DNA of 33,485 nucleotides from Endomicrobium sp. (GTDB taxonomy: Bacteria > Elusimicrobiota > Endomicrobiia > Endomicrobiales > Endomicrobiaceae). The DNA is taken from the NCBI GenBank assembly GCA_031261715.1, contig JAISJB010000004.1, forward strand, positions 1 through 33,485, given 5' to 3'. The position numbers were made by a program, and so were the translations under genes. Below the pieces are notes generated by a model. The model was not told the DNA's origin. It was given only the letters and a program-made list of their open reading frames with translations, and did not search any database. Positions 2 to 2,552 of the stretch are shown piece after piece (within the stretch, counting starts at the first letter, position 1; the number at the start of each line of letters is the position of its first letter).

Positions 2-343
2 TTTAATGACACTGTTGATAACATAAAAGATGCATTAATAAAACATGATAAAACTTCACAGTATAGTAATAGGCCTGTTGGTCGTAGTGAAGTAGCACAA
101 GCATTTATAAGTAACATGAAAGAATCTTTCATATTTTTAACAAAATGTATTTTGACTGTAGCACTTACTCCACCTGCTTTGATTATACCTGTATTGCATA
201 TATACTTAGATGTATTAAACATATTACTTCCACCGCCAAATCAAGATCCATTTATGAAAATTACATGGAAAGAATACATGGACCATTTTTTTGAGATTGC
301 AGTTGATCGTGTGTTAATACCATATAAAATCGTGTGGGGCTAA
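2..343 (+). CDS. Unidentified protein, C-terminal part (cut by left edge)
   Basis: The frame is open from the left edge of the window to a TAA stop, giving the last 113 residues of a protein that begins outside. I do not recognise the family. The visible part starts polar (Asn, Asp, Lys rich). It then has one strongly hydrophobic stretch around the internal Met at base 116 and after it (FLTKCILTVALTPPALIIPV and on), followed by a proline cluster LLPPPNQDP and an amphipathic end, ITWKEYMDHFF...IPYKIVWG. The hydrophobic stretch could be a membrane helix. An ATG-initiated 75-residue reading frame from 116 is possible, but the upstream frame has no stop, so a longer gene is more likely. The stop lies 15 bases before lptF on the same strand, so the two are probably co-transcribed. 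Confidence 0.55.
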   Translation, partial: FNDTVDNIKDALIKHDKTSQYSNRPVGRSEVAQAFISNMKESFIFLTKCILTVALTPPALIIPVLHIYLDVLNILLPPPNQDPFMKITWKEYMDHFFEIAVDRVLIPYKIVWG

Positions 344-358
344 AATAATCTTTGCTAT

Positions 359-1449
359 ATGTTGATAAAGAAATTACATCAATATATAACAAAAGAGTTT
401 CTTTCTTCTTTTTGTTTTGGTTTGATTGTTTTTTCTTCTTTACTTGTTCTTGACAGAGTATTAAATCTATTTGATCTTTTCATTGCTTACAAAGTTAATT
501 TAATTACTATATTTAAATTATTCTTTTTTCTTTTACCAAACATCTTAGTCATTACTATTCCTATGGCTGTTCTGTTTGGGATATTAATTGCACATTGTAG
601 ATTATCAGTAGATAACGAAATAATAGCACTTAAAGCTCTTGGCCTAAGCTATACTACATTGTTTATACCTACCATAATACTTGTTTTTAATATTTCTATT
701 CTTATGTTGTTTTTTAATCATATTATTACTCCGTTAAGTCATACAAAATTTAAATCTTTATTTAAGTCAGCTATAATAAATAACTCATACATAGATTTAA
801 ATGACAAAAAAAACATCAAATTAGGTCATTATACACTATATGCAGATAGCGTAGATAAAAAAAAAAAATTATGTATAGAGTCAATATTTACAATAAAACT
901 TCTGCTAATAGGATAACTGCCTCATTAGTTAATATGTATATTGATAAGAATAAAGTTCTTAAGCTTATTTTACATAATGGTTGTTTACAAAATATAGATC
1001 ATTCAAATAAAAATAGTATCACACTTATCTATTTCAAGTATTACTATCTCACTATAGATTTATATAAACTTATTAATAATTGTACAAATACAATATCAAT
1101 ATATGAAATGTCATCATATGATATTTACAAAAAAATGCAATACTATAGAAAATATAATATTAATATTATTGAATATGAACAACAATTTTGGTTTAGATGG
1201 GTCTTTGCTGTTGCGCCATTAGCTTTCACAATCTGTGCATTACCGTTAGGCTTAATTTCTAATAACAATAATAAGAATATAGGATTTATTACTAGTCTAT
1301 GTATTATTATGTTCTACTATTTAATGCTTATTATATCAATAAATTTAAGTGAAAAACATTATATTCCTACAAATATTGCACTATGGATTCCAAATATTAT
1401 AGTAACTATAGTAGGTATTTTTTTTCTTGTCAAGTTGGTAAAAACTTAA
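359..1449 (+). CDS. lptF: LptF, LPS export permease; reading frame broken by a 12-A run
   Basis: YjgP/YjgQ-family inner-membrane subunit of the LptB2FGC transporter that extracts lipopolysaccharide from the inner membrane. The N-terminal part (359 to about 868) has the family's first membrane helices, the segment NILVITIPMAVLFGIL and the conserved EIIALKALG cytoplasmic loop. The C-terminal part (from about 868) has the end of the periplasmic domain and the last membrane helices (FRWVFAVAPLAFTICALPLG). The halves are in different frames: the first runs on to a stop at 916, and the second has its first ATG at 871 and ends at 1449. The shift lies at twelve A residues (857-868). One extra A gives a single protein of about 363 residues, the normal family length. 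Both halves look well conserved, so slippage during transcription, a sequencing indel or a very recent mutation all fit. The stop TAA overlaps the ATG of lptG (TAATG). Confidence 0.85.
857..868 (+). repeat. 12-A homopolymer at the lptF frameshift
   Basis: Twelve consecutive A residues sit exactly where the two halves of lptF change frame. Counting codons from the ATG at 359, the downstream half needs one added A (13 in all) or two fewer (10). Long A runs are known sites of RNA polymerase slippage in AT-rich endosymbiont genomes, and also of sequencing indels. The sequence alone cannot separate these. Confidence 0.9.
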
Positions 1450-2552
1450 TGGTAAGTATTATTACTAAATATATTGCTAAAAACTTTATAAAAATTTTTA
1501 TCTTTATTACGTTAGTTGTACTAACTATAACTACAATATATGAATTATTTAAACGTTTGGGGTTTTATCTAGAATACAATGCTTCAACTTTACTAATTAT
1601 ACTGCATTTACTTTGTAGTATACCGCGCTGGGTTTCACAACTTTTACCTATAGTGACACTACTATCTATATTATTTTCTGTAGGCGAGTTATCAAAACAT
1701 AATGAAATAACTGCTATGAAGGCCTTAGGAACAAACATTGACAAAATTATTTTTTTACTAATTATATTAGGTTGTATTATAGGATTATGCGATTTCACTA
1801 TACGTGAAGTTATTATTCCTAAAACAAGTAAATATACAGAATTTATTAAGATAAACAAAATTATGAAAAAAAATATAGTCTTAGAGACGAAGTTCTATAA
1901 TTTAATATTAGCTATGTCAAGATATGAAAGAATTATGATAGAGTATTGTAATATTGGTGAAAAAATTATTAAAAATCTTGTAATTGAAAAATATAATAAC
2001 AAATTTGAAATAACTGATATTATTATGGCACAGTATGCTCTATGGAATCACACAAGATGGATTTTATACAATGGTATTTTACGCTCATTTCACTATAATA
2101 CAAACATTGTGTTAGAAGAAACTTATTTCAAAAAGTATATTTCAAACATAATGATTAACCCTAATGATATAAGAACTGTATTACGAGAAGTTAATTATGA
2201 TAATATGACAACCAATGAATTAGTAACATATATTAACTTATTAAAATCATTAGGGCAAAGTGAAATGAAAATAAGAGCAACTTTAATAGCTCTACATAGC
2301 AGATATGCATATATGTTTACACATATTGTAATGATGCTAATAGGAGCTTCATTTGTTTTAAAAGTGCAAATTCAAAATAAGAAAATTAACTATATTATTG
2401 CCTTGCTTATTTCATTTATATATTTTTGTATGCAGTCATTAACGAATTCATTAGGTGTAATCTTTTTACTACCTACATTTTTAGCTACTTGGTCTGCAAA
2501 TATTATCTTTATAATACTTGGTCTATATTTAATAATGAAATTAAGAAAATAA
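1449..2552 (+). CDS. lptG: LptG, LPS export permease
   Basis: Second YjgP/YjgQ-family permease, partner of LptF in the lipopolysaccharide extractor. The protein is about 367 residues. It has an N-terminal helix after ITKYIAKNFIKIF, further helices around WVSQLLPIVTLLSILFSVG, the family loop HNEITAMKALG, a periplasmic middle domain, and three C-terminal helices ending in a basic tail (IMKLRK). I chose the ATG at 1449 because it overlaps the lptF stop in a TAATG junction typical of translational coupling and starts the family's usual N-terminus. An open frame continues upstream to 1383 but only inside lptF. LptG is the last plus-strand gene; 12 bases later the first minus-strand gene ends, so the two transcription units converge. 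Confidence 0.9.
   Translation: MVSIITKYIAKNFIKIFIFITLVVLTITTIYELFKRLGFYLEYNASTLLIILHLLCSIPRWVSQLLPIVTLLSILFSVGELSKHNEITAMKALGTNIDKIIFLLIILGCIIGLCDFTIREVIIPKTSKYTEFIKINKIMKKNIVLETKFYNLILAMSRYERIMIEYCNIGEKIIKNLVIEKYNNKFEITDIIMAQYALWNHTRWILYNGILRSFHYNTNIVLEETYFKKYISNIMINPNDIRTVLREVNYDNMTTNELVTYINLLKSLGQSEMKIRATLIALHSRYAYMFTHIVMMLIGASFVLKVQIQNKKINYIIALLISFIYFCMQSLTNSLGVIFLLPTFLATWSANIIFIILGLYLIMKLRK

Follow-up and report, generated by a model that had tools for sequence, protein, structure and literature searches.

Genes in which a single indel in a long A-run interrupts an otherwise intact frame have been described from Buchnera and Blochmannia (Tamas 2008, Wernegreen 2010; PMC3017870, PMC5009743). 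The genomes are AT-rich, reduced symbiont genomes and the gene products are expected to matter. Blochmannia carries 4-8 such genes per genome, equivalent to 8/153, 4/134 and 4/114 tracts (3-7%; PMC3017870). At poly(A) runs of insect symbionts, 12-50% of transcripts are reported to be corrected (PMC5009743). Insertions predominate among transcription errors in A/T runs, which is the direction needed at the locus described below, lptF; one survey across the Buchnera transcriptome detected no frame restoration, which counts against rescue (PMC5574713). In lptF, as in the insect symbiont genes, the lesion is a single indel within a long A-run and the gene is otherwise open, the genome is AT-rich and reduced, and the product is expected to matter. 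Unlike those genes, lptF belongs to a member of the phylum Elusimicrobiota with a protist host, is one case in its genome instead of the 4-8 of Blochmannia, and carries a shift common to no relative.

Programmed -1 ribosomal frameshifting of the dnaX type is a further comparison. Here too a slippery A-run permits a -1 Lys-tRNA slip, and the needed lptF product lies in the -1 frame. In contrast to the dnaX type, no downstream structure was found at lptF, the site is not conserved and nothing points to the use of two products.

LptF, the permease of LPS export, is represented by the families PF03739 and TIGR04407 and by structures such as 5x5y and 6mjp. The locus resembles the family in that both halves match in order, lptF precedes lptG, and the joined product would have about 363 residues. 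It differs from the family in that the frame is interrupted within the periplasmic domain, and a loop after the join that varies across the genus is short in this genome.

The split lptF gene and its A12 run

The window, the whole 33,485-nucleotide stretch analyzed, is contig C4 of a genome of 483,639 bp in 5 contigs that is estimated to be 79% complete. Kinship, established through an alignment of LptG, places the genome in Candidatus Endomicrobiellum, a genus of Elusimicrobiota whose members are symbionts of flagellates from termite guts; the genus was treated by Mies et al. 2024 (PMC11257099), whose sister MAGs are Illumina/MEGAHIT assemblies. The initial annotation had drawn on insect endosymbionts, a setting that does not apply, as the hosts are protists in termite guts. 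Coordinates of the features are collected in Table 1.

Table 1. Features of the lptF region and of other loci mentioned in the text.
Feature	Location	Strand	Description
ORF cut by contig start	window 2-343		C-terminal part, upstream of lptF; no Pfam match; nothing similar beside lptF in sisters
Upstream lptF ORF	window 359-916	+	185 aa; PF03739 positions 1-164, E 3e-35; 42-52% identity to sister LptF
A12 run	window 857-868	+	Site of frame change; four in-frame Lys codons of upstream frame
Downstream lptF frame	window 859-1449	+	Open from inside the A-run to the stop; PF03739 positions 171-351, E 6e-24
Downstream lptF ORF from first ATG	window 871-1449		192 aa
lptG	window 1449-2552	+	Intact, 367 aa; PF03739 positions 1-352, E 2e-59; TAATG overlap with lptF stop
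lpxC and fabZ	L218:5897-7274 (G000:C2:29896-31273)		Separate, slightly overlapping ORFs
Aminotransferase remnant	L218:9011-9217 (G000:C2:33010-33216)		DegT/DnrJ/EryC1; flanked by lpxI and lpxB; matches profile positions 52-109 of 360
750-aa protein	L035:9406-11658 (G000:C2:51405-53657)		OstA/LptA-like start by eye; no Pfam or NCBIfam match
GlmU then PRPP synthetase	L041, G000:C2:315082-317466	-	795-codon open frame; apparent in-frame fusion
A19 run in glmU of G021	L242:5639-5657		In frame

The upstream ORF consists of 170 residues of LptF followed by 15 residues past the A-run that lack similarity, then a stop. The A12 run begins at an exact codon boundary of this frame, and the downstream frame is entered by one extra A, or by reading one base back, within the run. 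Together the two frames give a full-length match, in order, to the 353 positions of PF03739. TIGR04407 (LptF) outscored TIGR04408 for each half, with both halves below the full-length cut-off. The gene, which lies upstream of lptG, is the ortholog of sister lptF. These results bear out the initial annotation, which had two permease halves meeting in different frames at the run, one added A restoring a protein of about 363 residues (170 + 193 = 363), and an intact lptG beside them.

When the A12 is read one A longer, the sequence across the join becomes YADSVDKKKKIMYRVNIY, which aligned without gaps to the same 18-residue segment in 20/20 relatives, for example YANKVNRKNNILYEVSIY. With two A fewer in the run, the segment is one residue short relative to these sequences. 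The segment has a fixed length in the 20 aligned relatives and fits the assembled run plus one A. Since the single frame change in ∼1.1 kb falls within a 12-base run (∼1% by position alone), it marks a change in the length of the A-run, whether biological or technical.

The lptF and lptG genes of the sisters overlap likewise, or only a few bases separate the lptF stop from the start of lptG. Identity of lptG to the sisters is only ∼38-43%.

Relatives, constraint and the need for LptF

Matches to lptF were found in 33/41 sister genomes, each as one open frame of at least 370 aa. Seven of the 8 genomes with no match are incomplete or very small; G051 and G021, which are of similar or smaller size than the genome studied here, are among those with no match. 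The frameshift was present in 0/33 sister genomes with lptF, and no genome of the same species was found. As all sister copies are open, the shift is private to this lineage or to this assembly. A search of viral contigs found no relative, and neither did the initial search of genome contigs with the downstream half.

Genus-invariant residues were kept at 20/22 positions in the downstream half and at 22/29 in the upstream half. Mean identity to the sisters was 46% for the upstream half and 38% for the downstream half; the ratio of downstream to upstream identity, 0.82, is low, yet inside the sister range of 0.815-0.968. The lineage is fast-evolving as a whole. No second stop or shift, such as marks a pseudogene, was found over the 192 codons of the downstream half. 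In a neutral simulation at 10% divergence per site, ∼95% of copies gained a stop and ∼5% were still open. The conserved residues and the missing second lesion would fit continued constraint after the shift, but the shift may also be very recent, in a lineage that has no close relative. Taken together, the kept residues, the single lesion and the simulation leave three readings, a recent shift, a rescued one or one that does not really exist, and old decay of lptF is unlikely.

The genes lpxD, lpxC, fabZ, lpxA, lpxI and lpxB form one cluster, lpxK and lptB are located elsewhere in the genome, and all are open. Because lpxA/B/C/D/I/K, lptB and lptG are open, an LPS exporter should be needed. Lost lipid A synthesis was ruled out as a cause of decay for lpxA/B/C/D/I/K and lptB. 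Lost mutS was ruled out as a cause of slippage; the gene is open. No match to kdtA (PF04413) was found in this genome; the gene has been lost or lies in sequence missing from the assembly. In G057, a nearly complete sister genome of 1.1 Mb in 4 contigs, lpxB, lpxC, lpxK and kdtA are in pieces yet lptF is an open frame of 393 aa, so genes of the Lpt exporter can outlast lipid A synthesis. The initial annotation had argued that LptF is essential wherever LPS is made. The open lipid A genes agree with this, but G057 makes the rule a looser guide than was stated, and we felt that essentiality of lptF is a prior for this genome rather than proof. Its argument that simple decay is unlikely fared better: the two halves seem to be under constraint, lptG is intact, and the genome has lptB and the pathway for lipid A. 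The comparison with sisters that it had proposed gave 33 matches, all of which are open.

Two observations concern the lpx cluster itself. Between lpxI and lpxB lies a remnant of an aminotransferase gene (Table 1). The lpxC and fabZ genes are separate here; in many sisters they are fused in one frame of ∼450-470 aa. Elsewhere in the genome, the 750-aa protein listed in Table 1 may be a divergent protein of LPS assembly at the outer membrane, in a family for which the absence of LptD has been reported.

Long A-runs in the genome and its sisters

The genome contains 13 A/T runs of at least 10, all within genes and with A on the coding strand. 12/13 leave the gene open, and the lptF run is the sole exception. 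An excess of A12 runs was ruled out, as 4 were seen and ∼6 A/T runs of at least 12 were expected under a first-order Markov model. The other three A12 runs, the A11 run and all examined runs of 9-10 are in frame. Genic runs of at least 9 numbered ∼47 in the stretches examined, a selection that covered nearly all listed runs, and lptF alone lies at a break. A genome-wide habit of genes broken at A-runs was thus ruled out, lptF being the only case among the runs examined. One case in ∼47 tracts would nevertheless be consistent with the rate in Blochmannia cited above. In the sisters, ∼20 coding runs of 11-19 are in frame with no clear break seen; the count was taken from a listing, and one short ORF at L223 was left out as unclear. 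These runs rule out the same broken-gene pattern in the sisters. The in-frame state of nearly all long coding A-runs examined argues against routine slippage rescue in this genome or genus, and for selection that maintains reading frames at such runs at the DNA level.

One genome of the genus, G021, has ∼200 kb in 4 contigs at 66% completeness, an extreme reduction for the phylum. Its GC content is 19-22% in the stretches read, and 93 A11 hits were obtained; the glmU gene of this genome has the A19 run of Table 1. A glmU-like sequence was also met in the apparent fusion with PRPP synthetase at L041.

Explanations for the frame change

The lptF gene is split in two frames, the split lies in the A12 run, both halves are intact, and so is the context of genes for lipid A, LptB and LptG. 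We infer a true indel in the DNA and its rescue by slippage. A real, recent indel that is passively rescued is our best guess, a tentative one held at rather less than even confidence, with an error in the consensus a close second.

A functional and constrained lptF would recently have lost one A of a long run by replication slippage. In a minority of cases RNA polymerase would add an A, or the ribosome would slip back one base, on the A12, and enough correct LptF might still be made. The sequence AAA AAA AAA AAA before the join is a slippery heptamer in the right frame, and a -1 ribosomal slip on it would yield the same product as an insertion by RNA polymerase. The remaining product would be the truncated protein of 185 residues. 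Since the lptF stop overlaps the lptG start, ribosomes that terminate early would miss that start, and translation of lptG would be expected to fall. Export capacity would probably be lowered rather than regulated. It is very unlikely that the A-run is kept as a switch or dosage control that sets the amount of LPS exporter, and of LptG through the overlap. No stimulatory RNA structure was found downstream of the A12, where an 80-nt fold was no better than shuffles (z -0.28), which tells against rescue.

Against rescue also stand the 0/33 sisters with the shift, the lack of any other A-run in the genome that breaks a gene, and the closeness of the lptF run to an end of contig C4 (857 bp). The last point bears on the possibility that lptF is open in the cell and that the assembly gives an incorrect length for a run that sequencing handles poorly, in which case nothing is unusual. 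The run is in the longest class of the genome and the distance of another A12 to the end of C5 is 645 bp, so that 2/4 A12 runs are within 1 kb of a contig end (chance ∼0.0025, computed post hoc). With every other run of at least 10 in frame, 33 sisters open and no decay in lptF, a miscalled run is a serious alternative, and one we consider quite possible. On the other hand, the three other A12 runs, the A11 and all examined runs of 9-10 are in frame, which shows that misread homopolymers are not a general fault of the assembly.

The shift may also be real but not rescued, either as a recent null allele or as a run-length polymorphism in the symbiont population, with loss of the gene beginning. 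This would suit a shrinking, fast-evolving lineage with an aminotransferase remnant in its lpx cluster and kdtA not found, and G051 and G021 provide examples of similar or smaller genomes with no lptF match. We regard it as unlikely, given the open frames of lptB, lptG and the lipid A genes, the intact mutS, and a downstream half with neither a second lesion nor a clear loss of constraint. The least probable reading is a split permease, in which translation from ATG 871 would give a polypeptide of 192 residues that joins the upstream piece in a complex. The ATG does stand directly 3′ of the run, and the downstream ORF overlaps the upstream ORF by 46 bp. The lack of a Shine-Dalgarno motif ahead of it is uninformative, as most genes in the window have a weak motif or none. 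However, alignment to 5x5y_F places the cut inside the periplasmic domain and not between domains, the last 15 residues of the upstream piece would be unrelated to the family, and the arrangement is seen in no sister.

If the shift is real, lptF would be a new example, relative to the cited literature, of a known phenomenon in a new phylum and host type. If it is real and also rescued, as we tentatively prefer, tolerance of slippage would reach from insect symbionts to protist-dwelling Elusimicrobiota, and lptF would offer a simple locus for measuring slippage. The genus keeps nearly all examined long coding A-runs, up to A19, in frame, so a lone frameshift at a long A-run should be checked in reads before the gene is called lost or recoded.
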